DNA from: a virus
Strand: one strand, 5' to 3'
IMG/VR virus record: IMGVR_UViG_3300046787_000103
Coordinates: 1 to 31,831 of that record
Length of the DNA: 31,831 bases
Below, piece after piece: positions 1 through 26,849 of the stretch. Both the position numbers and the translations under genes were made by a program. The first letter of the stretch is position 1, and each line of letters begins with the position of its first letter. Below the pieces are notes generated by a model. The model was not told where the DNA came from and did not search any database. It saw only the letters and a program-made list of their open reading frames with translations.

Positions 1-221
1 GTGTCGTACCACAACTGTCCTTTAATTGGTTTAGTTGGACGATCCGCAAATGCGCTGGCAAAATTTTCAAGTAAATGTAAAAAGTTCTCTCCAATTGACT
101 GCGAGTATCCAGGATAATTCTTTCCGACAAATGTTAAATCTGTAACTTGATTCAATGTCTGGTCTTCAATGGTAATACTACCTTCATTTGGTTGGTCAAA
201 GTGATCAATTTGATATGACAT
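1..221 (-). CDS. Virion structural protein with LWYDT motif (partial, C-terminus outside window)
   Basis: The N-terminal 73 codons of a minus-strand gene run off the left edge. The ATG is at 219-221 and overlaps the TAA of the preceding gene by one base (TAATG), which suggests translational coupling. The visible part reads MSYQIDHFDQPNEG, then a stretch with NYPGYSQSIGENFLHLLENF and ends PIKGQLWYDT. An ENF...P..GQLWYDT pattern is familiar from structural or tail-fibre-associated proteins of marine T4-like phages, where LWYDT units repeat along the protein. Position at the end of the baseplate operon fits a short-fibre or baseplate-periphery role. That role is inference; the family resemblance is from memory and only one motif copy is visible. 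Confidence 0.75.
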   Translation of the reverse strand, partial: MSYQIDHFDQPNEGSITIEDQTLNQVTDLTFVGKNYPGYSQSIGENFLHLLENFASAFADRPTKPIKGQLWYD

Positions 222-832
222 TATGCTACCTCACTTAGACCTGTTAGACTTTGAATACGCACTGTATAGTCCACTTGGATTAATCTGTTTAATGATTTCT
301 GTACTGGGTGGAATATAACATGAGTTAGCAATCGACTTGCGCCAGTAGAACTGTAAGATTTTAATCCTAATTCGTCAAAGATGTATGTTCCGTCTGTATT
401 CGTTGAGTTGTCAAATGCCTCTTGGTTGCTAGGCTCGCCGTAGTCTAGCAAGCAGGTGATAAAAACATCAGTGTAGTTAGTACCAGTAACGTGTCTTGTT
501 TCTATTTTGTTTCTAATAGGATCAAGGTTTACACTTGCTCTGTCATCAACTACCTTAGTGTATGTTTCGTTATACAAACTTGCATTTGTACCTGTACTGT
601 TAGGAGTAAGATACGTAATAATGCCGGTTGGATCAATTGTAGTTCCGCCGTTGCCGAACGCCATTTCGTAAATGAAGCCTTGGCCGGCGTTGGCAATACT
701 TTCAGCTAACGAAATACTCATGTTTTCGTAGTGGATAGCATTGCGCTTATTAATAAACACTTCTCCAGTTTCTGGATTGTGTATCTTAATGTGTCCTTCA
801 ATGTGGATTCCTGATAAGTCTTTACCTTGCAT
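221..832 (-). CDS. Virion structural protein, marine T4-like type (203 aa)
   Basis: Complete 203-residue ORF. The ATG is preceded by a purine-rich AGAGAG about seven bases upstream and a TAAATAC late-type element at 849-855. The N-terminal third contains GEVFINKRNAIHYENMS followed by a Gly-rich MAFGNGGT segment, then a beta-rich remainder with no catalytic motif, signal peptide or membrane segment. The GE...NAIHxENMS...FGNG arrangement recurs, as I recall it, in short structural proteins of marine myoviruses, but I cannot assign a T4 gene number. It sits between the giant gp7-position protein and the LWYDT protein, so a baseplate or fibre-attachment role is likely by context. It is separated from the upstream giant gene by a hairpin and may form its own transcript with the downstream partial gene. 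Confidence 0.85.
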   Translation of the reverse strand: MQGKDLSGIHIEGHIKIHNPETGEVFINKRNAIHYENMSISLAESIANAGQGFIYEMAFGNGGTTIDPTGIITYLTPNSTGTNASLYNETYTKVVDDRASVNLDPIRNKIETRHVTGTNYTDVFITCLLDYGEPSNQEAFDNSTNTDGTYIFDELGLKSYSSTGASRLLTHVIFHPVQKSLNRLIQVDYTVRIQSLTGLSEVA

Positions 833-969: not shown

Positions 970-3900
970 TTATCTACCAAATACTGTCTGTGTATTTTTG
1001 ATAAAATTCGCTATGTCATTGTTAGAATTTGTTAAATCCATTCCTGGATCTTCCCAACCTCTGCCAATTTTCTTAACAACTACAACCTTACTATTCTCTA
1101 ATGCAGGAGTAGTTAATGTAATGCGGCCAACTGGAACTTCCGTTGTACCGTAGTTAGTACCGTCTGTTTCAAACTCAGCTGGCATATCACTATCGCCTTC
1201 TGGGCTATACGGATATCCGTTAGTCTCGTCGAACAATTGATAGTCAACCTTTTTCAATCGGTAGCCGCCGACAAATATGTCAACAGTGTCGCTATGATGT
1301 TGGCTAGATAACGGATCGTATACTTTCGGTACGTAGTTTAGATTAATGTCAGTATCTACACCATTACTTACTGTAGTTTCAACAATATGTCTGTCGGCAT
1401 ACGGAATTGTTTCAGTCGGACCAATATCTAATACTGTTGACGAAACACTGTGTTGAACAGGTGCGCCTGTGCCTAGTGTAGCTCTACGTAATTGTCCTAA
1501 TACATTGCCATTTTTAGAGAAGTACTCAATACGCTCTCCGTTGATTTCAATTACACCTGGTAAGTTCAAAGAAGGATTTGGCTGGCTTAGTACTGTGCCG
1601 TCGACTACAACAATTTCTGCGTCACGCTGACCTAGCACTTGAGCTAGAACAGTTGACTTATCCTTAGAAATTCTCTTGTAATGCATACGGTTCAACATGT
1701 CTTTAAACTGCATAAATCCGTAGCTAGTATGGACTGCATTGTCTCCGAATACAATAACATCAAGTACATCTGACGTGTCTAGAGGGGCCGATAATTTCAC
1801 TGTTACTAGATCAGAGTCTAAGTAATAGTCCACGCTATGTGTTAACATAACGTTATTTTTAATAACCCACACATAGTCATTAACTACTACCGATTTAGAT
1901 AGCGTAATGCTGCCGCCAAGCAACTGTTCGTATCTGTAATAATCATACGTACCTGGAACTAACGAACCAGTTAGATTAGTAAATTCAGATGTACGTTCAA
2001 TTTCTGCAACATCATGATTATAGAAAGATGTTACTTCAATATCAGTAACTGGCACTGTGGCAAACGTAATTTGATCTCCATCAATTGTATATTCTGCATC
2101 ACTAAAATTCACAACCGATAACAATGCGCCTTCAACATATGCTAGTGTTCTAAGTTCTATAGATACCACGGTCATATTAAACACATAATCAGATCCGTAA
2201 GTTAATTCAACTCCATCAAGATATACCTTGAAGTTAGTTGGATCAATTTGGTAAGGTTCTGCTTTATACCTTAACAATGAATAATCTAATATATCATCAG
2301 CTAAGGTAAAATACTCTGTGTTCGATGGACGTAGTACTTGGCCGTCTTGTATTACTAGTACGTTGTTTGCAACAGGCTGAGCATTACCTAGCACGTTAGT
2401 TAAGGTATATGTATCTGTAACACCGTCAACTTCAATAATCTCAGACTTAATAATTGAAGCTGATTGATTCTCGTCAACTGTAATCATATAAGTGATTAAT
2501 GCATCTAGTGGTTGAGGTACTGCAAATCGAATACCAACTTTACCTGGATACTCGTACGCTTCTGTTGTTCTAAACAACTCGTAGTTTACAGCCAGTCCGT
2601 CTACTAGTACTACTGATCCTAAGTTATCAACCCACGTTGCGTTAGTAATATACTCTAATGTACTTGCATCGGATACAAAGAAGTTTGTATCGATTAATGC
2701 TTGACTTGCAACACCAAAACTTATTATGCTAATAATTGACTTGTTAGCAGGGATATCTGTTAGTGTTACTGTCTTGTCTCTCCAATTAACAGTATAGTCT
2801 GTACCTTGCTTTAAAATAACTTCATTAGTCTTAACGAAGATAGCTGCAAAATTGCTAGGTATTTGTCCTAAGCTGAACTCATCAGTTACACCGTCACCAA
2901 TATAATTCTTAAACATAATTTTTGCAGAACCTGATGTAGGTAGTTGATACACTTTGATAGCAACTGCATCTGAGATATGTCCCGGCACAATTTCTTCAGG
3001 AGCAGCACTAGTCATAGGTGTTACAAACCCGTCACCGTCTAAAATAATATCATCTGGTGCAATGCCTGTAGCTGATGTTAATGCTGATCCTGTGAATGCT
3101 CCCCCGCTTAACTGAGTATCGTACTCGTTAGCTAGTGGAGTAAAACTTCCGTCGCTATTACTCTTGCGGAAAATTACCTTATCGTTCTCATCAATAGTTA
3201 AATTGGTGCTAGGCAATGTAAACACTTGTGTAACACCGTCGCCGATTATAGGAGTCATTACAGCAAATGGCTTGCCGGGCATTGGATAAGAAACAAAATC
3301 AGGGTCGTCAATTCGTTGACCTTCTACATAAACGTTAATTTCTTCTCCGACAGCAGGTGCATAATCTAAATCATACACATACTGACTAGCTGCTGCTGAG
3401 AAAATTCTATCATCAAACGCAGCATCAAATGCGTCCCATGATTCAGAGAACCACGGAAGACTATCCCATCCTCCGCTTACATTAAACCCTAAACCAGTAA
3501 CACTTGTTCCGCCGTAGTCAATACCAGTCATTAACTGTGCCAAGTCTTTTCCAAATTGTCCGCTTTCTGGATTATAATAGAAGTTGATCCTATCAGCAGC
3601 AGACAAGTGGTTGAAGTTCTTTGTGTATGTTACTACAACAGATGACCCAGAGGCTGGGGCAGTGTCAAAGGTTATTAGTCCGTAGTAACTAGTAAATCCT
3701 TTTGTTGTTGAGGTCTTAGTAGTTAATGTATACTCATTCTTAAGTACATCTAACCCGTCCACTGTTATAGAGCTTGTCCCAATTGTTGCATCTGGACTAA
3801 ACTTTAATGTGAACTGCAATCTAGACCCGGTACCTAAGAACGTTTCAGTTGATGTATGCTCAGTAACATAATAGCTTCTAGTAATACGATCAAACTTGAT

Positions 3901-6900
3901 ACTAATCTTATTTGCTCTAACAACTTCGCTTTCAATAACAACCGATGCACGAGCAGCTACTCCGTCTACACTTAGGCCACCGTCTAATACAATTGTTGGG
4001 GCTTTTAAATAACCTGTGCCTGGATTTAATAATTGTATTCTATTAACTTTTCCGTTAACAATATATGCCTTTGCTGTTGCGCCGGTTCCGAAACCGCCTT
4101 CAATTCTAACAACTGGGTTGGCAATATATCCGGACCCACCGTCAATTAAATTAATACTTTGTACTGTAAATCCAACATGATCATACCAGTGCTTCCAAGG
4201 ATAGTTAGTAATCTCAGTAGATGATGATTCGATATCTCCTAGTTCATTTACTGTTACGCTAATAGGCGTAACTTCAAATTTAGAATTAATCGTTGGTATT
4301 AAATCAAAGTCTGTTACAGAACTTTGTGAGTTGTCCATCCCAGTGTATGAGCTAATGTACTCACGCACTTGTGTTTTGTATGGTTTAACTTCGTTAATGT
4401 AATCTTCAAAGTTAGCCAAGTTATCGCTGTTATAGTTTATCTTCTGCTTCAAAGATCCAACATTATGAGTTGCTTTTACAAAACTAGTCTTGAACGCCCA
4501 GTCAATGAACGTTTGCTCGTGAAGTGCGTAGCGCAAACTTGCAAAGAATAATTTTAAGTACTCAACTCTAAATTCGTCAATTAAAATTTTATTTTTAATT
4601 GTGTTAATAATAATGTTTAATTCAGTAGATGCTAGATCATCATATAATGTAGAGTCAAACAATATGCTGTCATACCCAATAGTTTCATAATTATACAACG
4701 TACTAGAGAACTGGATTGTTCCATTTTCTCGTCCTACTACTTTATAATTTTGAGTATAGTCAATTGTTACTAGGTTGTTATATTTCTCTAATAGCACCCA
4801 GCCGCCTGACCCTATGTTCTTAACTTTTACTATCTGGCCGATTGTTGAATCTAATAAGGCAAGCTGGTATGTGTTATCAACTAAATGATCAATTTTTGTA
4901 AATTGTGTATATCCTGTTGCATACCAGTTGACGTAATTCCAGTACTTGGTGACATCGTAACCTTGTCCTTTTGCCCTGTCCCATAGCAATGTATCTTTAT
5001 TCCATTGATAAGTGCTCCACTTATCAAATGTGTTAGAATCGCTAAGAACTAGCACAGTAAATGGTCTTACTGTGAATGTAGTGCTGTCTTGATATCCTTC
5101 ACCAGTGCTAATAACATTTACACCTGTTACTTGTCCAAGCTCATTAATAACTGTTTTTACAACAGCTCCTTTGCCTGTAGTAGATATTGTAACATACGGT
5201 GCGTTAACGTATCCGCGGCCTGGATTGATAATGTCAACGCCGGTAATTCTGCCATCAGTAATAACTGGTGTTAGAACTGCTTGAACTAATGTTGCAACAC
5301 CTACGAAACGCAGTTCAGCATTCGTATCGATCGTAGTATCCCATACTCCTGACAACGCAGTTGGTGCTTCATTAAATGTTTGAAGGTCACTTAAATCATA
5401 ATCGTCAACAATTAAGTTAACTGCTAATACAGAGTTAACACGCTCAATGTATTGCTTCAACGCTTCTACACGGTTGATAAACATACTCTGACGAGGTCTG
5501 AATTTAATACCGTAACGCTGTTTGAACGGGAGTTTAATGTCTGGCACCACACGGTCATTATTATCTTTGCCTATTAAACTATGAATCCACTTGTTCTCTA
5601 ACTCAGTTGGGATAATAGTGTTTGGGTGCTCACTGATAATTTTCCACTGGCTATGAGCATTGGCTTCAATGTGTGCTAAATCAACTGTCCAATATTGTAC
5701 GTTTAGATTAAAATTAGTGCCGCTGATTAAGTTAGTAGCATTTACTAAACTAAAAGAATTTTGACCAGTTAGTGCAAGACACTGGTATCCTTCAGATGTA
5801 GGATCTGATATTAATCTAGAAACATTATACGCAGACAGTTTTCTACCTGTAGCATTTGGAGCTATTGTAGGATTTTTAACCCAGTAGTAGTATGTATTCT
5901 GGAAGTTCTTAGCAACTGCATCGTACTTCTTTTTAATACTGTACGCAGTGTCGCCGTATCGAGATGTTCCACTAATACCTATTGAGTCTCCTCGATCAGT
6001 GCCGGACAAATTGTCCCATTCTGACGGCAAATATTTTGATTCTACCCATTCGTAAATATCTATGCTAGCAGTCTCGTACAATGTGTTCCATGTAGTTGAA
6101 CGATATACAATGCCGCCGGCGCGGTTATCTAAAAACTTTGCGCGAGTTAAGTCCCACCATAATGTACCTACCTGTTGTTTAGACCAGTTCATGCCGTCAT
6201 CGACATTAACTGAACTATTACCAACTGAATATGTTGCAGGATCAAAGTATGTCTTATAACTAATTTCTTGATCTGCTGGCCCAGGAATCTTACCTTGAGC
6301 GGCGTCAACTACATCAATATATGCCGCTAGCACATTTTTAGTTCTGTCGTATATGTATGCTTTTTTAATTTTATATACATCTGGACGAGATACTTCTCGG
6401 TAGTCAACTTCCCATGAAGTGGCACCCATTTCTCGTGCGTATGTGTATACATATCCTCCATCTGCATAAGTGTTTGGAGCGCCGACTACAATATAGTCAT
6501 CTGACATAGCTATCGACGACCCGTATAAATCAACAATGCTTGGAACTTCTAGAGCCGGTGTTTCTACTGTATCGGGTGCAACTGAGTTTAAACTTTCTCC
6601 AAATATAAATTTTGTGTTGTAACGATCGTATATATCAATTCTACCAGTGTCAATTTGCTTGTCAACAATACGTAATGTGTTGTTGTCAAATGTAGTGACA
6701 CCACCGTCATTAAATGTTGTTTCTTGTTCAATGTCGCCGCTTGCAGAAAATATAACTAACGAAGCATCGTCATTCATAAAATTAACAGTATATCCGAATT
6801 TTTCAGCAGCTTCGTGTTTATTGCTAACAATTGTCTGGTGCAGGTCAACAGTTGAATCTATAGAGAATACAAATACTGTACCTGTGTCAGTATACGAAGC

Positions 6901-9900
6901 ATCATTAAACGGTGCGCCAACTGCAAGATAGTTTCCAGGTTTAGATATTGCAACAGATTCGCCAAAATTGCTTCTATTCGTTAACCCGGATACTGATGAA
7001 GTATCTAGTGTACTTACAAGTGTGTATGTTCCGCTTGTTCGGCGATATACATACACTGCACCTGGATAAGTATCTTCAAGATCATTAGTTTCAATAGGTG
7101 CAGAAATTGCTAAAATATCGCCTGCGGCTGACATTGCAATATCATATCCAAATATTTTATTAGACTCAGGAGCAGTAATAGTTCCGTAAACTGTCCATGC
7201 ATTGCTAGTGTATTCAAAAACATGAACGATGCCGGTGCTATCAGTATACCCAGGAGATGCAACTGTTAAGAAATATTGCGAACCTGTGTTGGCAAATTCT
7301 ATAGTAGAACCAAACAGTTGGTCTGACAATTCAATCGGACTTACTAGCAATTGAAAGAAATTATAACTAGTTTCATTTGCTTTCTGATATAGGGCAACAT
7401 AACCTTGATTTGTTAAATTACTGTTATCAATATCAGATGCATTAGGTGCAGAGATTGCTATCCACATCCCGTCTGACGAAAACTTAATTTGTGCACCAAA
7501 ATTATCTGATGTGCCAATTAGTGTCTGACTAGGTGCAAGCTCAAAAGACGGTAACCAATTATTAGTAGAGACGCCTTTGGCATATACTGTAACTACAGTA
7601 CTACTATTAGCCACTGCTACAAGTTGTCCGTTAGGAGATACAGCTACCTGTTTGCCAAAGTTTAGATTGTTCCCTAAATCAAAATTAGTTATAGACTGCT
7701 GATCGAAAACTTGATTATTAGTGTACACTGCATACAATCCGCTTCCGTCATTATCGGCCCAAACTCTTTCGTTGGTTTTTAATGTCGAAGGAATATGATC
7801 ATTTAACTCGTCAATGTTACTAATTCTACTTTCAATAAACTGATATAGTAATATTTGGTCTAAATCAGTAAATGGTGTTTGCCAGCCCGTAATTGTAGTA
7901 ATAATATTAATCTTACGACCAACAACTGATGTTACTACATAGAACCCTTTTATCGATTCTGAATTTTCGATACCGATTACATCGCCTGCTGCAATAGTAG
8001 GAATAGTATCGCAAGTAATAATTAATTTATTAGATGTGTATTCAACATTCTCAACAGTAATATTAGCTGTTGTAAAACGATATATGTTCCAATCTCTGCC
8101 TTCGAAGGCGCACCAAATATTGTCACCTTCAACAAGGTTTGAAATATCATGTGTTACAATATCTGTAATAGTATCAAGATTTAATGCTACATCTTCGTAC
8201 TTAACATACCCCGGAGTTCTTAAGTACTCAGAGCTATTTGAAGTAGGCCAGACATTATTATTATATCCTACAGGAGCAATATAAACATCAGCCGGTGTTT
8301 GTCTATATACAAAATCTACAAGAGATGTATCAATTGTTGAAACTAATTCAAAAGGTTGCGGATTTAATTTAAATAGGCTTTCGTCTAATTTAAATTCTAT
8401 TTCAGCAAACGAGTCGCTAGCACCATAGTTACCTACACGAACTGCCCACTCTTCGTTGAATGTTAGACTTTCTTGATCGTCTGCACTTAATACATCAAAC
8501 AACTTACTGAATACGTTTTGAGTACCTTTCTCGATGATCATGCCTTGGTAAAACTTGTACTGGCTCACATCGTCTTGAATAATGTTTTCAAGATACTGAC
8601 GTTTCTGATATCCAATTAAATGCTGGGCCATTTTTTGTTGGCCTGCGTCAAAGTTATCACTATCTAGGCTATAAAAATCTGTAAACTGATCTGCTTTGTA
8701 ATCCCAGTTAGGCAACATCTGAGAAGTAGGCTTCTCATCTAACTTAATCCAATTCTCAGTATTAAACGTTTCTGTACCAGGTAAGAACGAGTTTGCTGAA
8801 TAGTAAAATTCTTTGTATTTTACAGTGTCACCTAAATTATAATCAGTCCACGGTGCCCATGCAGTTATAACAGCTTGATCGTAAATAAAACCTGGGATGT
8901 TAAATCCGCCATTCCAATTTGTAGAAATATATCCAGATACCTTAATACGTTCTTGGCGGTAACCTGGTGCCTGGTCATATATTACGTCGTTAAACAGTGT
9001 AGTATTATCTAACAATAATACATGTTCTTTTTGTACTAAGTACAAGGTTGCGCCGTAGATGCCGTGGTTTGTATTTTCTGGTCGCAGTACAAATTGATTG
9101 TTTTCTCTGAATGAGTTTGTAAACTCGGCGGGCAGTTTCTGTCCGTCAACTCTGAAAATCTTATACTCAAAGAATTCGTCTCGAATATTATTAACTACTG
9201 AATCAGTACTTTGAAATACTAAATTATTTGCAGCAGGGCTTAGTGATATTACCGCACCTTCACTCCAATTCTGTGTAGACCAGAATAAAAATTCGTTTAT
9301 ACTAGTTTCCCAGTTATTGACGGTTTTTAAATCTGTGTTGAACTCATCAAACACAAACCCTTGTGCTTCTAAGTAGGCTGAATAGCCTTGCATAAAATCA
9401 ACTACTGACTGAATTGTTGAAAATTTTGTTCCGTAGTTAACTACTTGTTCGTTATTTGTATCCCATGCTTTACGCAACTCTGCAGAACGACCTCCGTTAA
9501 CTGGCAGCTCTGCTAGTTTAGCATAATTAGTTGCGTCAAACTTTTCACCGCTTTGATGAGATAATGTTACTCTATAATATAGTCCGTTGGCTTTAACTAA
9601 TTTTCCAACTGCATAATATTGATCTGGTTCCCATACAATGTAACTTTCTGAGATACCGCCTACATTGATAGTTCTCCCGGTTAATGTATAAGGATAGTAA
9701 GTGAAGTAAGGATGATCATTGTTGTATCCTCTTATTTCATATCCGTCTGCAAACTTGGTAATTACTACGCCGCTATATACTAACTTCTTTGTTGGCGAAG
9801 AAGTGTTTAAAATTATTTCATAGTTTTCTTCAGGCACAAAAACACCGCCTGAACTAGAGATGCTCTTACTATCTAGTAATAATCTAAATTTTTGTTTGCT

Positions 9901-12900
9901 AGTAAAACCGCCTAGTTTAGAACTTATTTTGTTAGTAATGTTTGCAAGATCCGACTCGTATTGTGTAACTAATAATGTTACATCGCTTGTAATATAATCA
10001 ATTATGTAATTGATCAAGCCTGAAGTGAATATCCTACTTGAGCTTAGTGCAGTTGATGGTATTACCATATCAGCTAATCTGATACGTAAGCCAGTTTCGG
10101 CGTACACTAATTGATTGTTCAAGTTACGTATAATTCTACTACGATCTAAACAAGTACCAAGCACAGTGTTGGGTTGCAATAATAGTGCTGTTTGAATCAC
10201 CGCGAATGCATAGTAAGAACTACGGCGCCATGCTGATTCAACTGGGCCAACATCACCAAAGGTGTAGTATCCTTCAGCAGTAGGTTTAATATATCCGTTA
10301 ACATGACCAGCATAGTAAGGAGAAATTAAATTGCCGTCTTCATCAACAGGTGCGCCATTTTCTAAAATAGATTTAGCAAACTTTTCTAGTGTCCTAATAG
10401 GCACGCCCGGTTGTCTAATTTGGCCGTTCTTAATATCATCCCATAAAATTAAGTTGTTACTTGTGTACGGAGCTGGTCCATATACTTCTTCCCACCACGA
10501 TGGTTTAATAGAATATCCTAAACACTCCCATGGGTGTGTATGTGGACGATCAGTGTCTAATGTCCAACGATATACACCTCTCCAGAATGCAGGAGAATCT
10601 GTGTTGTCTGGTAACGAGTTACCTCTATAGTTCCATGTAAATGAATTCAATCTGTCCCACAGGCTAGTGTCTTGCTGTGTATAGTCCTGTGCAATGTTAG
10701 TAGTCCATTGGTAGAAAAACTGACTCATTACTTGATCTATTTCATTCTTAGTGTATGCTGTAGGTCTACTATATCCTGCAATAAAATTGTAGATGTCAAA
10801 AATTTGCGGATCGTACTTAACTTTTACGTTGTTAAAAATACGCATTTCTAATTCTAAAATTAATGCATCTCTATAATCATCAAATGCCAACGTGATACTA
10901 CCGTCGTGTCCTTGGATTACCGTTGTAGGTTCAAGGTAAGTATTATCTACAAATATTTGTGGCTCAAAAAGAGGATACAAGCCTAACTTACTTGGGGAAG
11001 CTGGACAGAATGAACCGTCTGTGGTTCCGTACTCGTATGACTCTATAACATCCCCGTTTACTAAATCAACGAGAATCTCAAAGAATATATCTGTTCCAAA
11101 TACATAGTCTCTGCCGTGCAACAATTGATTTCCGTTTAAGTAGATATTAACTGCTTGGTTAGATAATGTATCTAAATTAAATGCAGTAGTTAACGGGTAT
11201 GTCTTAACTCTAGAGTCTAGTACAATATATTCATTGCGGACTGCTCCAGTGTATGCAAACATATCTGACAAGTAATACGGTTGTGTCTTAGTTTTATCTT
11301 TTGATAATTCTTGTAAAATATAATCAACGTGTTGTTTTGTATCAGTATCAATACCAGAATCGGCTGCTAAGGTAATAAATGCTCTTTTAAATTTTCCGTA
11401 GTCGTTTCTGGCCTTGTCTAATGCCTTGATCACATTTGCTGTTTGAGAACCTAAATGATATAAACTTAAATTCATTGGTCCGCTATGTTGTACAAATCGT
11501 GTGCCTAGTGGAGTAATATTTCCAATGTCACGCAAGTTGCTATAACCTGGATATACTCCGTCAAACGATGTTAAGTGTTCAACAATAATGTCAACGTGGT
11601 CGATAACTTCACCCAACGTGAATTGAGACAAGTTAGCATTTAACGGATTGTTTTGTAAGTTTAACGGAATCTCGTAATGACCGTTATTGTTTTTAGCTTG
11701 TGCTGAAAAACATTTTAATGTAACAACATCAGCCGTAGTCACATCTGCACTAAGCAACACTGACTTCCTTACAGTACCATCAACTATTGAGTATGTGTTT
11801 TTATTTTGTCTGCGACCGTTGACAAAAACATTAACAACTAAATCATCTAACTGATCTTTAAAATCATACATATCCAAAGGAAAGTTGTTAACTAAATTGC
11901 TTTCTTTAAAAATTCTAACAACTGGATTTGCATTAGTTAAGGTAGATGCTGTCCACCCGTTCTCATATGAGAATGTATCAATGCCGGATATAACTCGTAA
12001 GTACCCAACATCTGTAGATTTAGTAAGCACCGACGTTACTTGCTTATAAGCAAACGAATCACTTAGTATATTAAATTCAAAAACAATATCTCCAATATTG
12101 CTAATATTTTGATAGCTTAATGCAAACCCTAGTGCAGAATCTGCTGTACCGGTGCCTACTTTATAACTAAACAACTTAGTGCCAGTGAATGTAGATCCGT
12201 CGTATGTTGCATTATCGCCGTAGCTGTTACCATCGGCGTCAAAAATATCAAACAATGGTGCTTGATTAATTGTTTCTTTCTTTTGTCCTAGTTGCCATGT
12301 AGTACCATTGTACCAATACATAGAACCTTGATTAACTGCTCCTGTCTTAACTAAAACAGTTTCGTTTGTAATAGGAGTTGTGTCAACAGATTCAACTAAT
12401 GTAATCTGTCTGCGGTATCCGTTGAATGTTTCAAAAGCGTGTGTTCCAGCGCCAACACTTAGAATATCAACTAATGTGTTAAGTGTTTTGTCAGAGTATA
12501 ATTTAATAGACGTAGTACTAATAACAGATACAAAATAAATTTGCCTGTTAACTAATCCGTCAATGCTAGTATTTCCATTGTTCAAATATATAATCTGATT
12601 ACCCGTAGCTAAACCATGCGGTGTTGAAAAAGTTATTAGATCAGAAGTATCGTTAACTTCAGTGCTTGCTAATAATTCTAAACGACGACCTTGTTCAGTT
12701 ACTGAAACAAAATTAACATCAAATATTTTTCCGTTTACGAATCTGTCAGTGTCTGCGGTAAACAACACACGCATGCCATCAGCTAGGTCAACACCGTCGA
12801 CGTTATAACCGAGACTTCCTTCGATTGTTGAAAACACATCTGTTGTAAATGTGTCAATAACATCGACGTTTTTCTTTGACAAATGTCCAAAGTTAAATAA

Positions 12901-14187
12901 TTTCAAACCTGCATCAAATTCAATAATAGGACGAGTAGCACGTTGAAGTTGGTCGAGCTCTGGAACTTGACCTGCGGCTGTCGCTGTTGCTATTACAACA
13001 TCTTGATGGAACCAGCGATTATACCTAGACCATGGGTTTCTATCTGGACTAGACCTATTAATAACAATATAATCTTTATCTCTAGGAAACGAAGTTAGTG
13101 TGCTAAACGGAGCCTGGTCAAATGGTTCGTCATCAAACAATAGAGAAGTCTCTTGAGAATAAGAACTAATAATTTCAAGGTCGGCTTCTGCTACTAATTT
13201 TATAGCAGTACCAACTCCTTCAACATACCAGTACCCGGCAGCATACTCTTCAGGAGTGACCTTACCAGTAAATGTTAATTTCATGCCATTTGATAATGAC
13301 ACTCCGTTGCTAAGAGTATATGTCTTCTTGCCAACAATATCAGCATTTACATCTAAGAATGTATTTTCAGTAATGTCTTTTACTTCGAATACACCACCAG
13401 TATTTGCATCTGCTTCGCTAACATAGAATAATACATCAGGACAATTCTCTTGCACTGTAAAAGTAATAGTGCCTTCTTTAATGCCATTAGCACTTACTCC
13501 GTCAGTGTATCGTTCTAACTCTCCTGCAACTCTAATAGTTTTTATTGAGAATGGGTTATTTGGTGCAGTGATGGAAAAGTTATATGTTTGTCCTCTGTAC
13601 AATGTTATTACAGGGTTACGTGTTAGTCCGTCTGGGCTAAACACATATGCATAGTTGTCGCCTTCGTCTTCAATTGTAACAGTAAATGTACTATCAATTG
13701 CTTGCTGTTGTCCTGCTACTTCAATTGCAGAAGGTCCGTACGGCAACCAGTAGTACTGTTGAAAGTTAACAAACTTATCCCAATTAATATGCGGGTTCCA
13801 AGAATAAAATTCTTGTTTGTTTAGACGTTCGTGATTTAGAACATTGCCGCCGTTGGTGGAAATATGGTTAATATGATCAATGTAATCTTTATAGAAGCTG
13901 GTGTTACCCAAGTAGTCTTGAATAACTGCTGCTGGCTCTAATTGATAATTTTGTCGAGTTGTATCGGTGGCGGCAACAAATACATCAGTAGCCTTAACAG
14001 CTTTTGCATTTTTTCTACCAATAAAACCGGATACTTTTTTAACAGTTCCTGGTTGTGTTAACTGATCTAACGTTGCTGCTAGAAACTTTTTGTTACTGTC
14101 AGTTCTATAAAAGCGCGGCAACAAATCTGATGTTGTACGGCTTTCATTTTTTGACAGAGGCAATTTTGGTTCGTTTTGTGTAGGCAT
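970..14187 (-). CDS. Giant baseplate wedge/tail protein in the gp7 position (4405 aa)
   Basis: A single uninterrupted 4405-codon ORF, 41% of the window, begins at an ATG overlapping the gp6 stop (TAATG). In T4 the gene after gp6 is gp7 (1032 aa), so this is a positional counterpart more than four times longer. Visible parts: an N-terminal segment (about residues 20-160) with LLPRFYRT...FLAATLDQL and FYSWNPHINWDKFVNF; a Trp/Tyr-rich middle near 1195-1245 with FWRGVYRW and KPSWWEE; seven FG-GAP repeats at about 2177-2585; GxGYxxxP elements near 2990, 3350 and 3395; a conserved-looking stretch near 3210-3300 with EVKPYKTQVREY; and a C-terminal series of beta modules (about 3430-4390) of the form GVT..F.L...V.VDG....YT...I...P..G..I.V. 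No signal peptide or catalytic site was seen. The ORF and structural nature are certain; equivalence to gp7 is inferred from synteny. Confidence 0.9.
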   Translation of the reverse strand: MPTQNEPKLPLSKNESRTTSDLLPRFYRTDSNKKFLAATLDQLTQPGTVKKVSGFIGRKNAKAVKATDVFVAATDTTRQNYQLEPAAVIQDYLGNTSFYKDYIDHINHISTNGGNVLNHERLNKQEFYSWNPHINWDKFVNFQQYYWLPYGPSAIEVAGQQQAIDSTFTVTIEDEGDNYAYVFSPDGLTRNPVITLYRGQTYNFSITAPNNPFSIKTIRVAGELERYTDGVSANGIKEGTITFTVQENCPDVLFYVSEADANTGGVFEVKDITENTFLDVNADIVGKKTYTLSNGVSLSNGMKLTFTGKVTPEEYAAGYWYVEGVGTAIKLVAEADLEIISSYSQETSLLFDDEPFDQAPFSTLTSFPRDKDYIVINRSSPDRNPWSRYNRWFHQDVVIATATAAGQVPELDQLQRATRPIIEFDAGLKLFNFGHLSKKNVDVIDTFTTDVFSTIEGSLGYNVDGVDLADGMRVLFTADTDRFVNGKIFDVNFVSVTEQGRRLELLASTEVNDTSDLITFSTPHGLATGNQIIYLNNGNTSIDGLVNRQIYFVSVISTTSIKLYSDKTLNTLVDILSVGAGTHAFETFNGYRRQITLVESVDTTPITNETVLVKTGAVNQGSMYWYNGTTWQLGQKKETINQAPLFDIFDADGNSYGDNATYDGSTFTGTKLFSYKVGTGTADSALGFALSYQNISNIGDIVFEFNILSDSFAYKQVTSVLTKSTDVGYLRVISGIDTFSYENGWTASTLTNANPVVRIFKESNLVNNFPLDMYDFKDQLDDLVVNVFVNGRRQNKNTYSIVDGTVRKSVLLSADVTTADVVTLKCFSAQAKNNNGHYEIPLNLQNNPLNANLSQFTLGEVIDHVDIIVEHLTSFDGVYPGYSNLRDIGNITPLGTRFVQHSGPMNLSLYHLGSQTANVIKALDKARNDYGKFKRAFITLAADSGIDTDTKQHVDYILQELSKDKTKTQPYYLSDMFAYTGAVRNEYIVLDSRVKTYPLTTAFNLDTLSNQAVNIYLNGNQLLHGRDYVFGTDIFFEILVDLVNGDVIESYEYGTTDGSFCPASPSKLGLYPLFEPQIFVDNTYLEPTTVIQGHDGSITLAFDDYRDALILELEMRIFNNVKVKYDPQIFDIYNFIAGYSRPTAYTKNEIDQVMSQFFYQWTTNIAQDYTQQDTSLWDRLNSFTWNYRGNSLPDNTDSPAFWRGVYRWTLDTDRPHTHPWECLGYSIKPSWWEEVYGPAPYTSNNLILWDDIKNGQIRQPGVPIRTLEKFAKSILENGAPVDEDGNLISPYYAGHVNGYIKPTAEGYYTFGDVGPVESAWRRSSYYAFAVIQTALLLQPNTVLGTCLDRSRIIRNLNNQLVYAETGLRIRLADMVIPSTALSSSRIFTSGLINYIIDYITSDVTLLVTQYESDLANITNKISSKLGGFTSKQKFRLLLDSKSISSSGGVFVPEENYEIILNTSSPTKKLVYSGVVITKFADGYEIRGYNNDHPYFTYYPYTLTGRTINVGGISESYIVWEPDQYYAVGKLVKANGLYYRVTLSHQSGEKFDATNYAKLAELPVNGGRSAELRKAWDTNNEQVVNYGTKFSTIQSVVDFMQGYSAYLEAQGFVFDEFNTDLKTVNNWETSINEFLFWSTQNWSEGAVISLSPAANNLVFQSTDSVVNNIRDEFFEYKIFRVDGQKLPAEFTNSFRENNQFVLRPENTNHGIYGATLYLVQKEHVLLLDNTTLFNDVIYDQAPGYRQERIKVSGYISTNWNGGFNIPGFIYDQAVITAWAPWTDYNLGDTVKYKEFYYSANSFLPGTETFNTENWIKLDEKPTSQMLPNWDYKADQFTDFYSLDSDNFDAGQQKMAQHLIGYQKRQYLENIIQDDVSQYKFYQGMIIEKGTQNVFSKLFDVLSADDQESLTFNEEWAVRVGNYGASDSFAEIEFKLDESLFKLNPQPFELVSTIDTSLVDFVYRQTPADVYIAPVGYNNNVWPTSNSSEYLRTPGYVKYEDVALNLDTITDIVTHDISNLVEGDNIWCAFEGRDWNIYRFTTANITVENVEYTSNKLIITCDTIPTIAAGDVIGIENSESIKGFYVVTSVVGRKINIITTITGWQTPFTDLDQILLYQFIESRISNIDELNDHIPSTLKTNERVWADNDGSGLYAVYTNNQVFDQQSITNFDLGNNLNFGKQVAVSPNGQLVAVANSSTVVTVYAKGVSTNNWLPSFELAPSQTLIGTSDNFGAQIKFSSDGMWIAISAPNASDIDNSNLTNQGYVALYQKANETSYNFFQLLVSPIELSDQLFGSTIEFANTGSQYFLTVASPGYTDSTGIVHVFEYTSNAWTVYGTITAPESNKIFGYDIAMSAAGDILAISAPIETNDLEDTYPGAVYVYRRTSGTYTLVSTLDTSSVSGLTNRSNFGESVAISKPGNYLAVGAPFNDASYTDTGTVFVFSIDSTVDLHQTIVSNKHEAAEKFGYTVNFMNDDASLVIFSASGDIEQETTFNDGGVTTFDNNTLRIVDKQIDTGRIDIYDRYNTKFIFGESLNSVAPDTVETPALEVPSIVDLYGSSIAMSDDYIVVGAPNTYADGGYVYTYAREMGATSWEVDYREVSRPDVYKIKKAYIYDRTKNVLAAYIDVVDAAQGKIPGPADQEISYKTYFDPATYSVGNSSVNVDDGMNWSKQQVGTLWWDLTRAKFLDNRAGGIVYRSTTWNTLYETASIDIYEWVESKYLPSEWDNLSGTDRGDSIGISGTSRYGDTAYSIKKKYDAVAKNFQNTYYYWVKNPTIAPNATGRKLSAYNVSRLISDPTSEGYQCLALTGQNSFSLVNATNLISGTNFNLNVQYWTVDLAHIEANAHSQWKIISEHPNTIIPTELENKWIHSLIGKDNNDRVVPDIKLPFKQRYGIKFRPRQSMFINRVEALKQYIERVNSVLAVNLIVDDYDLSDLQTFNEAPTALSGVWDTTIDTNAELRFVGVATLVQAVLTPVITDGRITGVDIINPGRGYVNAPYVTISTTGKGAVVKTVINELGQVTGVNVISTGEGYQDSTTFTVRPFTVLVLSDSNTFDKWSTYQWNKDTLLWDRAKGQGYDVTKYWNYVNWYATGYTQFTKIDHLVDNTYQLALLDSTIGQIVKVKNIGSGGWVLLEKYNNLVTIDYTQNYKVVGRENGTIQFSSTLYNYETIGYDSILFDSTLYDDLASTELNIIINTIKNKILIDEFRVEYLKLFFASLRYALHEQTFIDWAFKTSFVKATHNVGSLKQKINYNSDNLANFEDYINEVKPYKTQVREYISSYTGMDNSQSSVTDFDLIPTINSKFEVTPISVTVNELGDIESSSTEITNYPWKHWYDHVGFTVQSINLIDGGSGYIANPVVRIEGGFGTGATAKAYIVNGKVNRIQLLNPGTGYLKAPTIVLDGGLSVDGVAARASVVIESEVVRANKISIKFDRITRSYYVTEHTSTETFLGTGSRLQFTLKFSPDATIGTSSITVDGLDVLKNEYTLTTKTSTTKGFTSYYGLITFDTAPASGSSVVVTYTKNFNHLSAADRINFYYNPESGQFGKDLAQLMTGIDYGGTSVTGLGFNVSGGWDSLPWFSESWDAFDAAFDDRIFSAAASQYVYDLDYAPAVGEEINVYVEGQRIDDPDFVSYPMPGKPFAVMTPIIGDGVTQVFTLPSTNLTIDENDKVIFRKSNSDGSFTPLANEYDTQLSGGAFTGSALTSATGIAPDDIILDGDGFVTPMTSAAPEEIVPGHISDAVAIKVYQLPTSGSAKIMFKNYIGDGVTDEFSLGQIPSNFAAIFVKTNEVILKQGTDYTVNWRDKTVTLTDIPANKSIISIISFGVASQALIDTNFFVSDASTLEYITNATWVDNLGSVVLVDGLAVNYELFRTTEAYEYPGKVGIRFAVPQPLDALITYMITVDENQSASIIKSEIIEVDGVTDTYTLTNVLGNAQPVANNVLVIQDGQVLRPSNTEYFTLADDILDYSLLRYKAEPYQIDPTNFKVYLDGVELTYGSDYVFNMTVVSIELRTLAYVEGALLSVVNFSDAEYTIDGDQITFATVPVTDIEVTSFYNHDVAEIERTSEFTNLTGSLVPGTYDYYRYEQLLGGSITLSKSVVVNDYVWVIKNNVMLTHSVDYYLDSDLVTVKLSAPLDTSDVLDVIVFGDNAVHTSYGFMQFKDMLNRMHYKRISKDKSTVLAQVLGQRDAEIVVVDGTVLSQPNPSLNLPGVIEINGERIEYFSKNGNVLGQLRRATLGTGAPVQHSVSSTVLDIGPTETIPYADRHIVETTVSNGVDTDINLNYVPKVYDPLSSQHHSDTVDIFVGGYRLKKVDYQLFDETNGYPYSPEGDSDMPAEFETDGTNYGTTEVPVGRITLTTPALENSKVVVVKKIGRGWEDPGMDLTNSNNDIANFIKNTQTVFGR
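6432..7659 (-). other. FG-GAP seven-bladed beta-propeller segment inside the giant protein
   Basis: Seven spaced copies of a (F/Y)G-x(4-5)-S..G....V..AP element can be read between about residues 2177 and 2585. They begin FGKQVAVSPNG, FGAQIKFSSDG, FGSTIEFANTG, FGYDIAMSAAG, FGESVAISKPG, FGYTVNFMNDD and YGSSIAMSDD. Several are followed by GxVxVY/F outer-strand motifs (GYVALY, GIVHVF, GAVYVY, GTVFVF, GYVYTY). This is the FG-GAP pattern of integrin-alpha-type propellers, and the count of seven matches a closed ring. Calcium-loop DxDxDG motifs were not seen. Confidence 0.8.
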
Positions 14188-17100
14188 TAGTTAGTTCCTG
14201 CGCTAGTTATTGTTTGTTGGCTAGTTGTTGTTGATGTTACTGTAATTGATCCAGAACTTCGAATCTTGCTTGCAGTAATTGCTGATATAATTTCAACGTC
14301 ATTAACTGTTGCACCGTTGATAAAAATTTGATCTTTTTCTGCACGAATTTCAAATAAACTACCAAACGATAACGTTGATTGCTTCGGTACAATTATGAAG
14401 TTCACAATGTTAGGAGCAAGTCTGTTCATTACATAGGTTAACAATTCACTGAAGAAGAAGTCGCCACCGAAGTCCCAATTCTCTAATGCAAAGAATTCGT
14501 TAACAGCGGATAGCACTTTTGATTTAACATCGTTATCACTAATTACTATTTCAGAATTCTTCACAATCTTAAACGTTGCTTGAACATCCGGGCTTGCTTT
14601 GTTTCCAAATAATACTTTGTATTTCACTGGATGATAAATGATTTCGTCTGATATCGATTTGATTTTATTTAAATCAGTTGACAGTAAGTTATATAAAAAG
14701 TCTGTGCTCGGCGGTAACGGTTCTGTAGTACGTGATCCGTCGATCCATTCTCTAAATGACTTATCGTAATCTTTAGTTAAAATAAACACATCAATTAAAT
14801 TTGTTAATCCCGGGTCAATCCTTGACTCGTAATCGGCGTTGTGTATGTATTGAAACTTAATATTCGATCGTCCTACAAATACTCTATAATCAAGACTAAC
14901 AACAAATCCCGCAGTATCAGAATACTTCTTAACTACGTTAGTATCAACAAAATAGTAATATTGATTATTAACACCGCTAATTGGTTGTGTATCTAAAATA
15001 ATTACAATATCGTTACTGTTATCAACCCAACGGTAATCTTCTTGTCCTTGGGCAATAACATATAGTTCCTGTACAACATACTGATCGCTAGTCGAAACAA
15101 TCTCATCAAATATAGATGGGTCGTCAACAATGCCATCGTCATCAGTGTCGCTAAATGTAACTTGTATCTTTTTAGTGTCAACATATCCGTCAAGACCTCG
15201 ATACTCTTCTGATACTTCCCAGTCACGATCATATGTAAACGGACTAGTTCCGCCGAGGCTCGATAAATCTGTGTTAATACCTAACACTTTAATTTTATCC
15301 TTCACTACAGTGTTTGATCTAGTATCATAAATTTTATCACTTGCATCAAAGAAGAATCGAATCTGCTGATCACTTTCAAATATAAAACGCAACAGTCTAG
15401 ATTTCACTGTATAAAATTCCGAGTCTGTGGTGAACAAAATTAACCAACTTGCATCTAACTGTTGATTGCTAATGTCGCCTTGCTTACCCGTACTAAAATT
15501 ACTTGCAGTATCTAAGTTAACCTCAAATACAATCTTCCAGGTGCGAGATTCGATATCATAGCGGAGACCAAATGGTTTGTTTGAGAATACTAAATCTACC
15601 ATTGTACTAACAGTGTTAGTGTCAATTGTTGTTCTCCATGCTGGAATTAATCTGTCAATGATTGCACCAGTTGGGATTATGTCGTTTAAAATGATAGTTC
15701 CTGAACCGTCAGTTAATGTTCCTGTACCATTGTTTGATCCGTCACCGTTTACTGACACGACTTTACACCATAATGATGTAGTAGCATTAGCAACAGTGGC
15801 CGATCCCGTGACTAATTCATTGCTATTAGCTTTGTTAAAATATTGACCTGCTGGTGCAACAAACTTAACTAGTGCGCCAGGAGTTAAGAAACGTAAAATA
15901 GTACTAGTGTACGAACCAACCTTAAACGGAACATAAGATTCATTTGCTACAAAACCTGTGCTTTGATTAACGTCGGTAGTTGCTCTATACCAGAAAATAT
16001 TATCTGTTGCAACTGCTATAAATTTAGAATAGTAGTAATCTCGTAATTGTTGAGACTTGAGTGTTTCAAGCAATTCATTGTATAATACTGCTTCAATGTC
16101 TGTACGGGTAGTGTAGTTAAATCTAAAACTATCAGTATATTCTTCTTTGTATAATGCGCCGTCGTCTGCAAACAGATTTGTTTTGGAATATTTGCCTGTT
16201 GGGTCTACTAGGTCAAAATAACGACTAATTCCGCTACTAGAACGATTAACTGCTTTCACTTTAACAACTTGTTGATTGATACCTAGCGGACTAATGTTAT
16301 AGTCCTCGCCTGTAATCATTCTATTTTGTGTATAATAAGTTGCAGGAGCATTTGCTTTGATGCTAGAATTTGATTCTGTTTCAGCAGCATTTGCTACAGA
16401 ACTTTGTAAATTCATAGTCACAGATAACGTTTCAATTTGATTTAAGTTTGAAACATATGGGATTTCGATAGCAATATTTCTGATATCTTTAGGATTAATC
16501 GTGTAGCTGATACCATTACTTTGTCTATAGTATGCACGGAACGTACCTAATGGTAAGTTACCAAATGTGCCATCGCTAAAAGATAAACTAACTTTGTCAT
16601 CTGCACGAGTTACAACACTGTAGATGTTTCTAATAGATTTCTTTAAACTATTATAGATAGTGTTGTTACCTTCAAGTGCAGGAATTTTTGCCCAGTATTC
16701 TGATTCTAGTCCTTGTGTATCTAACTTGTATAACCATACGTCGTCATTGTTAATATTTGTAGCATCAATGTCTACTGTTTCATTAGTCGATGGTTGATCA
16801 ATAGTGAACGTACCTTGATTCAAGATACCTTGACGGAAATGAATGAAGAAGCCTGTGTTAGCACTACCGTTACCTCTGCCGTCATTACGATAGACAAATG
16901 CTAGTCTATTACCAATTGCAGGAGGCTCTTCATAAATGTACGTTTGATCTTTAAATGTAGTACTAACTACTTCAAATGGTAAAACACGGCCGTCAACTGC
17001 CTTAGTAAATGCATACACTGGTACATCAGTATTGCTTGCTTGAAAGCGATATTGTTCTGTTGGAATTCCGTAAATATCGTTCTTATCGTCCGGGTTTCCG

Positions 17101-17609
17101 AACTGACGATTAACTGGCAATGCTGCGTTAATTACTTTGATGAATTGATCGTACCAGTTAGCATTACTCGGATCATTCCAACTAATAACTTGTCCTGATA
17201 AATTTCTACCGTTAGAATCGTAAACGTTTTGACTTGTAGAAACTGTAGTGAATTTTAATAAACCGCTGCCTGCGATATTTCTCTTAGGGTTATAGCTTAA
17301 TAAACGTGCAAGACGTAAAACACTTTCACGACGCTCAGCTAACTCTAAGAAGTTATCTCTAGCATTTAAATCAATACGGAAAGCAATACTTTGTCCTAAG
17401 AAGGCAATAAGATCAATCAGGGCAAGGTATTCACTAGATTCGATGTAGTCGTTAAAATCTTCAGGGTAATTTTCCCTGATGTAATTAACCATGACTCTGC
17501 GAAGATTTTCAAAATCGTAGCTCTGGAAATCTGCACTGCGGAAGCTTTGATATATACGCTTCCAATCTTCCGCTACTAGTAATCTATTTTGTCTATCAGT
17601 TGTTGACAT
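14187..17609 (-). CDS. 6: Baseplate wedge subunit gp6
   Basis: gp6 forms the ring-linking dimers of the T4 baseplate wedge. The 1140-residue product opens with MSTTDRQNRLL and has the gp6/gpJ-type N-terminal block: YIRENYPEDFNDYIESSE, LIDLIAFLGQ, RIDLNARDNFLELAERRESV and LARLLSYNP (about residues 40-110). A central FSDGTFGNLPLGTFRAYY segment near residue 340 is also characteristic. T4 gp6 is 660 aa, so this is a long marine-type version. The ATG at 17609 was chosen over an in-frame TTG four codons upstream because GGGAAAG lies just before it. It lies between gp25 and the giant gp7-position gene, as in T4, and its stop overlaps the next ATG. Confidence 0.92.
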   Translation of the reverse strand: MSTTDRQNRLLVAEDWKRIYQSFRSADFQSYDFENLRRVMVNYIRENYPEDFNDYIESSEYLALIDLIAFLGQSIAFRIDLNARDNFLELAERRESVLRLARLLSYNPKRNIAGSGLLKFTTVSTSQNVYDSNGRNLSGQVISWNDPSNANWYDQFIKVINAALPVNRQFGNPDDKNDIYGIPTEQYRFQASNTDVPVYAFTKAVDGRVLPFEVVSTTFKDQTYIYEEPPAIGNRLAFVYRNDGRGNGSANTGFFIHFRQGILNQGTFTIDQPSTNETVDIDATNINNDDVWLYKLDTQGLESEYWAKIPALEGNNTIYNSLKKSIRNIYSVVTRADDKVSLSFSDGTFGNLPLGTFRAYYRQSNGISYTINPKDIRNIAIEIPYVSNLNQIETLSVTMNLQSSVANAAETESNSSIKANAPATYYTQNRMITGEDYNISPLGINQQVVKVKAVNRSSSGISRYFDLVDPTGKYSKTNLFADDGALYKEEYTDSFRFNYTTRTDIEAVLYNELLETLKSQQLRDYYYSKFIAVATDNIFWYRATTDVNQSTGFVANESYVPFKVGSYTSTILRFLTPGALVKFVAPAGQYFNKANSNELVTGSATVANATTSLWCKVVSVNGDGSNNGTGTLTDGSGTIILNDIIPTGAIIDRLIPAWRTTIDTNTVSTMVDLVFSNKPFGLRYDIESRTWKIVFEVNLDTASNFSTGKQGDISNQQLDASWLILFTTDSEFYTVKSRLLRFIFESDQQIRFFFDASDKIYDTRSNTVVKDKIKVLGINTDLSSLGGTSPFTYDRDWEVSEEYRGLDGYVDTKKIQVTFSDTDDDGIVDDPSIFDEIVSTSDQYVVQELYVIAQGQEDYRWVDNSNDIVIILDTQPISGVNNQYYYFVDTNVVKKYSDTAGFVVSLDYRVFVGRSNIKFQYIHNADYESRIDPGLTNLIDVFILTKDYDKSFREWIDGSRTTEPLPPSTDFLYNLLSTDLNKIKSISDEIIYHPVKYKVLFGNKASPDVQATFKIVKNSEIVISDNDVKSKVLSAVNEFFALENWDFGGDFFFSELLTYVMNRLAPNIVNFIIVPKQSTLSFGSLFEIRAEKDQIFINGATVNDVEIISAITASKIRSSGSITVTSTTTSQQTITSAGTN

Positions 17610-17628
17610 ACGCTTTCCCAATTATTGA

Positions 17629-17635
17629 GTATTTA
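17629..17635 (-). promoter_or_regulatory. Late-promoter-like TAAATAC element before gp6
   Basis: GCTAAATAC on the minus strand, 19 bases before the chosen gp6 ATG, in the 52-base gap after gp25. It shares the T4 late core and is preceded by AATATACGC; a TATACGC string also occurs on the minus strand upstream of the 203-aa gene. It would give an internal late start within the baseplate operon. Confidence 0.45.
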
Positions 17636-17661
17636 GCGTATATTATTATGTGTGTACTTAA

Positions 17662-18105
17662 TTACATTCCTGACAAACCGTTAGCTTTGTCAAATTTTAA
17701 CTGTATAGATTCTTGGATGTTGTATGGGTAATACACCAGTGTACATTCTATTTGCAAGCCTGTATCATACGGTGTTACTGTTATTTGTTCTGCACGAGTT
17801 CTAGGATCATAGTTGATGATTGTTTCAACATCTTTTATAACCATATCTCGAATTTGATCAGTTAGAGGTTCAAAAATAACGTCCCAGATAATTGTACCAA
17901 AGTCTGGCTGTTCTAATCGCTCGCCTAGTCGAATATGAAAATGATTTAACAAGTCTTGCTTGATTAGATTTAAATCATATAGCGCAAAACTATCAGTTGA
18001 CGCTGCTATCGTACTGAAACCTTTGTACGTTTTAGTACCCGGAATTACTTGTCCTTGTACGCTGCCCTGTAAGACAATTTTATCATATAATCTAGATGTA
18101 GCCAT
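17662..18105 (-). CDS. 25: Baseplate wedge subunit gp25
   Basis: 147 residues, close to T4 gp25 (132 aa). gp25-family proteins (GPW_gp25) are the most conserved wedge component of contractile systems and contact the sheath-initiating end of the tube. Visible family features are the ALYDLNLIKQDLLNHFHIRLGERL helix region split around residues 43-66, FGTIIWDVIFEPLTDQI at about 70-86 and a conserved NYDPR near residue 98. The ATG at 18103-18105 lies nine bases after the gp5 stop and only four bases after a TAAATAC string whose TAA is that stop, with no clear Shine-Dalgarno sequence. Order gp5, gp25, gp6 supports the call. Confidence 0.92.
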   Translation of the reverse strand: MATSRLYDKIVLQGSVQGQVIPGTKTYKGFSTIAASTDSFALYDLNLIKQDLLNHFHIRLGERLEQPDFGTIIWDVIFEPLTDQIRDMVIKDVETIINYDPRTRAEQITVTPYDTGLQIECTLVYYPYNIQESIQLKFDKANGLSGM

Positions 18106-18109
18106 AGTA

Positions 18110-18116
18110 GTATTTA
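18110..18116 (-). promoter_or_regulatory. TAAATAC string overlapping the gp5 stop, next to the gp25 start
   Basis: Minus-strand TAAATAC whose TAA is the gp5 stop codon, followed by TACT and the gp25 ATG. It matches the late core, but a start site six or so bases downstream would fall in or after the ATG, so it would give a leaderless message or be non-functional. Recorded because nearly the same string precedes the gene at 27753. Confidence 0.25.
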
Positions 18117-19541: not shown

Positions 19542-19544
19542 ATC

Positions 19545-21722: not shown

Positions 21723-21723
21723 G

Positions 21724-22023
21724 TTACGTTCCTAATAATTTTGTTAAATTATTTCCCTTTGGAATATAAATTTGTACGCCTGGCACAAAATCGTATATAG
21801 GATCTTGCAAGACGTCTAAATTTCGTTGTGTAAATACCCACCAAAGTTTTGCATTTTTATACAAGTCAAACGCCAACAAGTCTGGTCTATGAGTGTACTG
21901 TGCTTCTATAGTATAGAGAAAATCGTCAGGCTCTGCCGGCACTGGTCTAATGTTTAAAAAACTTAGATAGTTATCAACTATCGCAGTGTCCTTCCACGGA
22001 CTGCTATTCTTATATTGTGCCAT
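21724..22023 (-). CDS. 53: Baseplate wedge gp53-like (LysM-like, 99 aa)
   Basis: 99 residues containing YTIEAQYTHRPDLLAFDLY, then KLWWVFTQRN, DPIYDFVPG and IYIPKGNNL. The DLLAxxLY..xxLWWVF..RN...DPI.D...G..I.IP pattern is that of the gp53 wedge family, resembling a LysM fold. T4 gp53 is about twice as long, so this is a compact form holding essentially the conserved domain. Its ATG overlaps the upstream gene's TAA by one base and its stop is one base from the hub start, so all three are probably translationally coupled. In T4, gp53 joins the inner wedges to the hub. Confidence 0.82.
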   Translation of the reverse strand: MAQYKNSSPWKDTAIVDNYLSFLNIRPVPAEPDDFLYTIEAQYTHRPDLLAFDLYKNAKLWWVFTQRNLDVLQDPIYDFVPGVQIYIPKGNNLTKLLGT

Positions 22024-22844: not shown

Positions 22845-22850
22845 ATTGGA

Positions 22851-22870
22851 CTCCTTTGTTACTATATTTA
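22851..22870 (-). promoter_or_regulatory. Late-promoter-like element and strong RBS of the baseplate operon
   Basis: Minus strand: ACTAAATATA overlaps 22863-22872 and contains the late core TAAATA. It is followed by AAAGGAG (22851-22857) six bases before the ATG at 22844. This is the head of the long tail operon. The element abuts the -35 box of the divergent sigma-70 promoter. Confidence 0.6.
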
Positions 22871-22871
22871 G

Positions 22872-22900
22872 TTGACAAAATTAAGTACATAGTTTATAAT
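22872..22900 (+). promoter_or_regulatory. Perfect consensus sigma-70 promoter for gp55
   Basis: TTGACA at 22872-22877, a 17-base spacer, then TATAAT at 22895-22900: both hexamers and the spacing are exact consensus. The predicted start near 22907 gives a leader of about 13 bases containing AGGA (22911-22914) before the gp55 ATG at 22920. It would be read by unmodified host RNA polymerase early in infection. Confidence 0.88.
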
Positions 22901-22919
22901 AATACAAAATAGGACTACA

Positions 22920-26846: not shown

Positions 26847-26849
26847 TTG

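Follow-up and report, generated by a model that had tools for sequence, protein, structure and literature searches.

A giant virion protein encoded next to gp6 in an environmental virus is a probable gp7-class baseplate wedge protein

In T4-type tails gp7 packs with two gp6 copies in the wedge core, forming a (gp6)2-gp7 heterotrimer that contributes a single gp7 copy to each wedge. T4 gp7 (phrog_964, 1032 aa) is encoded after gp6, and the gene in this position encodes only 631 aa in Ochrobactrum phage OC and 896 aa in Melnitz-1. Giant gp7 proteins are already on record in marine cyanophages, where the annotated gp7 of P-HM2 has 4454 aa and the 'putative baseplate wedge initiator' of P-TIM68 has 4307 aa (record coordinates). 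These cyanophage proteins (phrog_2885, phrog_4406) are encoded directly after gp6, and a recognisable gp8 is also present. According to the study of phage XM1 (PMC10457771), a short helical motif of the gp7-type protein enters the gp6 core bundle, while the remainder holds spikes or fibres; this layout was adopted as the model for the protein described here. Other giants of jumbo phages, RaK2-like phages, Atu_ph07 and PA5oct among them, form phrog_10938, whose records read 'virion structural protein' and name no baseplate role.

The DNA analyzed, here called the window, comprises the 31,831 bases of an IMG/VR virus record; its minus strand carries one ATG-started frame of 4405 codons (Table 1). 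The sequence-only reading had described it as an intact frame of 13.2 kb, over four times the length of T4 gp7 and 41% of the window, and the computed values agree (4.27 times; 13,218 bases, 41.5%); its mass of ~480 kDa has to be corrected to 491 kDa, with a pI of 4.6. The frame is intact and under purifying selection. Over the whole gene, comparison with the nearest relative (L002) gives a pS of 0.70 and a pN of 0.17; the latter is higher in residues 2041-2600 (0.29) and 3751-4405 (0.26). Relatives were collected from IMG/VR: of 157 matching stretches the best 80 were retained, and these gave 76 loci. An assembly artefact or a chance open frame might be suspected because the contig is metagenomic and because the frame is broken once each in L060 and L069, two of the 76 loci from the best 80 of 157 stretches, inside the propeller region. 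However, a frame of this length has a chance probability of ~10^-141 with the composition of this strand, purifying selection is strong, the 42 complete environmental relatives (loci from the best 80 of 157 stretches) are single ORFs of 3884-5368 aa, and the isolates carry single long genes. Artefact and chance are already refuted by these conservation data, and we give them practically no credence. The two break sites (L060, ~14411-14454; L069, ~13076-13137) both lie in the propeller slot and are either sequencing errors or real splits.

Table 1. Features of the window, with residue numbers of the giant protein where they apply
Feature	Residues	Position	Strand	Remark
Giant gp7-class wedge gene (probable)		970..14187	-	ATG-started single frame, 4405 aa
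gp7-core-like helical segment	~1829-1910	8458..8703	-	profile-profile match
FY.G....KG motif	1879-1888	8524-8553	-	invariant in 49/49 sequences
Beta module shared with N-terminal part of cyanophage gp7 (GVI..INGERIEY...GQLRR)	4163-4258	1414..1701	-	E 1.3e-8
Variable cassette slot, FG-GAP beta-propeller here	2041-2610	6358..8067	-
Variable C-terminal region, fibre-like beta modules	3761-4405	973..2907	-
Cupredoxin-fold insert	161-277	13357..13707	-
CBM5/12-like small beta domain	1516-1560	9508..9642	-
CBM5/12-like small beta domain	1774-1818	8734..8868	-
GxGY module 1	2961-3050	5038..5307	-
GxGY module 2	3341-3420	3928..4167	-
gp6-like wedge gene, 1144 aa		14187..17621	-	phrog_219, E 7e-19
gp25-like wedge gene		17662..18105	-
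203-aa gene after giant		221..832	-	phrog_11259
Fibre-type gene start (anchor domain)		3..221	-	cut by window end

The window protein adds to a virion protein family that is already known, though unnamed. It matches phrog_10938 with 1032 bits (hmmscan, E 0), the segment matches spanning residue 19 to ~3300 and hence most of its length. The isolate homologues are single genes of 3857 aa in PA5oct, 4449 in Atu_ph07, 3326 in RaK2, 3807 in SCTP-2, 3323 in 121Q and 3340 in CBB. A tblastn search with residues 1-2000 matched 71 isolate records, those of jumbo phages with mostly 23-30% identity, those of cyanophages with low coverage, and a BFVD search with residues 1150-2060 returned known family members. 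IMG/VR searches started from the PA5oct and SCTP-2 homologues found no relatives, a near-DNA search among phages gave no match to the window, and the whole protein had no match among PDB sequences.

Members of phrog_10938 are present in virions, as printed and database records establish. Published proteomics lists CBB_236 with 21 unique peptides and 7.72% coverage in CBB virions (PMC5259590), and phAPEC6 gp245, of 381.88 kDa, with 17 peptides and 7.6% coverage beside the baseplate wedge protein gp244 (PMC7247149). Since the 121Q homologue has a computed mass of 381.87 kDa and the position agrees as well, phAPEC6 gp245 would be its counterpart. The database record of PA5oct gp355 carries the note ESI-MS/MS. 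Per-protein virion data for the Atu_ph07 and RaK2 proteins were not found in the accessible portions of the respective papers (PMC6102473, PMC3622015). The occurrence in virions on which the sequence-only reading depended is thus borne out through relatives, and an intact and a cut chain are alike compatible with these records.

Upstream of the giant, on the same strand, lie genes for gp6-like, gp25-like and gp5-like proteins, a phrog_11190 virion protein, a gp53-like protein and a phrog_12050 virion protein; in the sequence TAATG the start codon of the giant gene shares bases with the stop codon of the gp6-like gene. Among loci from the best 80 of 157 stretches, gp6 adjoins the giant in all 67 environmental loci that hold its 5' end and enough upstream DNA; the gp7 position proposed for the frame is supported by the order gp25-gp6-giant. 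The isolates examined have gp6 next to the giant, as in the window, in five of six cases, the exception being Salicola phage SCTP-2. The gp6-like protein of the window, with a TTG start, is ~480 aa longer than T4 gp6. In SCTP-2 (L082) a protein of 3096 aa occupies the gp6 place (14272-23562), and the gp6 match of this record was located at 231 kb. Downstream of the giant, the phrog_11259 gene is followed by a truncated gene with a fibre-anchor domain at its start, and the 203-aa gene with at least one anchor gene occurs in 44/44 environmental loci with enough downstream DNA (best 80 of 157 stretches). In one locus (L025, 19882-24224) three consecutive genes behind the giant have a common N-terminal anchor domain and differ behind it, one of them with tail-collar-fibre similarity; this arrangement suggests that several fibre types may share one docking site. 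PHROGs files phrog_10938 under head and packaging, whereas the genes around the giant and their order indicate the tail baseplate.

An alignment of 49 full-length sequences shows variable inserts that interrupt a scaffold conserved over residues 1-2040 and 2611-3760. The N-terminus is conserved, as had been proposed, but the most conserved part lies elsewhere, at residues ~1701-2000. Mean identity over 42 relatives is 0.73 in the core, 0.59 in the scaffold, 0.44 in the C-terminus and 0.35 in the slot. The beta-propeller read from the sequence is confirmed in the slot by Pfam FG-GAP_2 (E 1e-16, 61.3 bits against a curated cut-off of 23, three stretches). Among the 33 members left when 16 rows more than 90% identical are dropped, which were also used in the window-wise profile tests, the slot measures 120-1313 aa and contains FG-GAP_2 in 22 and CBM_5_12 in nine. 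It is nearly empty (120-143 aa) in CBB, 121Q, RaK2 and L038; the RaK2, 121Q and CBB proteins have 3323-3340 aa and the window member, with a propeller in the slot, 4405 aa. The C-terminal array of beta modules is plausible from the sequence, and the relatives give weak Pfam fibre and CBM matches there (Phage_T7_tail in 7/33, CBM_5_12 in 5/33, E up to 0.01).

Partial structure models were obtained for residues 1-1200 (pLDDT 81) and 1150-2060 (pLDDT 68.5). In PDB fold searches with both models the matches listed included cupredoxins, aligned to residues 161-277, together with domains of pilin-like or chitin-binding type, one domain filling the lists. The modelled residues 161-277 adopt a cupredoxin fold (2dv6_A, Z 11.2, rmsd 2.4, 100 residues aligned). 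Cupredoxins usually bind copper through His/Cys/His/Met. Residues resembling these ligands are absent from the insert in the window, and only a minority of the 38 rows retain the first His; the copper ligands have apparently been lost. A related cupredoxin domain in the fibre-connector protein of S-N03 keeps the ligand-like pattern HPF...YYQC..H..MGG. The two small beta domains resemble chitin-binding-type domains (Z ~6-7, clean local matches), and the GxGY modules are also found in many cyanophage virion proteins.

Direct comparison with T4 gp7 gave no detectable similarity. The T4 gp7 HMM (phrog_964) was found in none of 12 records, and the gp6 HMM (phrog_219) in 12/12; the core segments of 33 members matched neither phrog_964 nor a Pfam gp7-type family, although one of them matched phrog_26741, a family whose own link to gp7 is weak (E 0.0037). 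A comparison of T4 gp7, gp6, gp8-gp12, gp5, gp53 and wac with 18 segments of the giant detected nothing, and because the gp6 positive control was weak, it was redone with bridging profiles. The bridge is provided by the cyanophages: residues 600-800 of T4 gp7 and the N-terminus of cyanophage gp7 match each other (E 1.2e-9) in a helix that contains a KG(T) motif. When the giant was divided into 36 windows and compared with the cyanophage profile, residues 4163-4258 matched with E 1.3e-8 and the KG helix at 1855-1908 with E 0.0015. In this helix F1879, Y1880, G1882, K1887 and G1888 are invariant in 49/49 sequences; at position 1889, 42 sequences have T and seven have S.

Profiles were then enriched with the gp7 proteins of OC, Melnitz-1, P-HM2 and P-TIM68. 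Residues 1855-1906 matched the combined cyanophage, Ochrobactrum and T4 core profile with E 5.3e-5 and a score of 30.7, the maximum of 100 shuffles being 18.8; the E-values of the core segment were 1.9e-4 with the cyanophage-core profile and 4.9e-4 with the OC profile (each 0/100 shuffles), all of them single comparisons within a scan of 36 windows by five profiles. With the cyanophage-core, the Ochrobactrum and the combined profile alike, two overlapping core windows ranked first of 36, and the reversed windows reached at most 17.0, 17.7 and 14.0, respectively. With the T4 gp7 profile alone, the match lacked significance, as 6/100 shuffles of the family reached the score, yet the core site ranked first of 36; for the isolates only, 28/60 shuffles reached it. 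The six isolates alone aligned at the core site with the OC profile (0.0015, 0/60 shuffles), and their combined-profile score of 21.8 was below that of gp6-family windows (22.6). Because the match spans only ~50 columns, its strength is moderate. Residues 1828-1927 are predicted to be helical in the AlphaFold model with pLDDT <50. The PDB fold matches listed contained no gp7 chain, which excludes nothing; against PDB sequences the core segments gave one chance-level match. The N-terminal helix of the giant (LLPRF...) was also tried as gp7 core and rejected, its scores lying within those of the shuffles. Therefore, the proposed gp7 character finds backing in a gp7-core-like segment detected by profile-profile comparison, but not in a direct match to T4 gp7.

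The comparison places the giant near the cyanophage gp7s, with which it shares the position directly after gp6, a comparable size, beta modules (E 1.3e-8) and the core-like segment (E ~1e-3 to 2e-4). However, the core is N-terminal in cyanophage gp7 and mid-protein in the giant, and the remaining sequences are not alignable. With T4 gp7 the giant has in common the position after gp6 and, through the cyanophage bridge, the KG(T)-motif helical core; it differs in being four times longer and in its propeller and CBM-like modules.

The size of the giant had raised the idea that it absorbed functions divided in T4 among gp7, gp8, gp10 and fibre proteins, whether it stays a single chain or is cut after synthesis. 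It could be invoked for this idea that HMMs find no gp7 or gp8 homologue elsewhere except two weak gp8 matches, one of them inside a giant (G003, E 5e-4, at the extreme C-terminus). However, the window scans gave no gp8- or gp10-specific signal above controls. The T4-anchored gp8 profile reached 18.6 at best against a reversed maximum of 19.2, and the S-N03-anchored cyanophage profile matched only the GxGY modules, whose sharing with cyanophage gp8 is promiscuous. For gp10 the best score of 27.8 (0/100 shuffles) is below the reversed-window maximum of 29.7, and in PA5oct a gp10-like gene of its own lies three places downstream of the giant. An absorption of fibre proteins finds no support either, since separate fibre genes with a common anchor domain follow the giant in 44/44 loci (best 80 of 157 stretches). 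Such a fusion is therefore very improbable. In the absence of gp8 or gp10 signals above controls, and with separate fibre genes, the extra length corresponds to added modules and not to swallowed wedge genes: a conserved scaffold has taken up accessory beta modules, an arrangement also seen in cyanophage gp7.

A more serious competitor, although still an unlikely one, is that the giant is a large peripheral adhesin or a wedge-attached scaffold beside gp6 and no gp7 homologue, the true gp7 being another, unrecognised gene and the KG match the product of chance or convergence. The lack of HMM similarity to T4 gp7, the shortness of the core match, the many adhesin-like modules and the broken gp6 neighbourhood of SCTP-2 agree with such a protein. 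They are opposed by the strict gp25-gp6-giant order, with gp6 in 67/67 loci (best 80 of 157 stretches), by the location of the gp7-core signal at the best conserved place, reached by 0/100 shuffles, and by cyanophage gp7s of the same size with the same gene position and related modules. Hence, on the core profile match, the position and the presence in virions, we consider it likely that the gene encodes a giant gp7-class baseplate wedge protein.

As a gp7-class protein, the giant would build the wedge core by packing its helical segment (~1829-1910) against two gp6 copies; gp6 contact, copy number and host binding we infer for it. The conserved scaffold on either side (about 1-2040 and 2611-3760) would make up the body of the wedge and keep its peripheral parts in place. 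From the slot right behind the core and from the C-terminal array, beta modules of the propeller, CBM5/12 and fibre-like kinds, all changing fast, would protrude; these probably contact the host surface or serve to hold fibres. A bolder proposal, which we regard as doubtful, is that the wedge protein is itself a host sensor, with a swappable propeller or carbohydrate-binding cassette directly behind the gp6-binding core; surface binding could then trigger the baseplate change without the fibre relay of T4.

The phrog_10938 family itself is known; what is new here is where its gp7 core lies and that it has a cassette slot, and neither point was found in the openly available article text searched. 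No paper in that text calls this family gp7. A function, that of gp7-class wedge core, is hereby proposed for a family that ranks among the largest virion protein families of jumbo phages still lacking a name. The extra length lies in one slot behind the core and in the C-terminus, the two fastest-evolving parts, where the carbohydrate-binding and propeller modules are found. If the assignment is true, RaK2-like phages do possess the gp7 that seemed 'missing' from them, and host-range determinants may be sought in the slot.

Some minor features of the window deserve mention. The T4-type late promoter TATAAATA has a single match in the window, below chance expectation. The gap after the giant gene contains, at 889-918 on the minus strand, a 13-pair stem-loop with a T-rich tail, possibly a terminator. 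An ORF of 142 aa (26847-27275) is, by the look of its start, a candidate GIY-YIG endonuclease.
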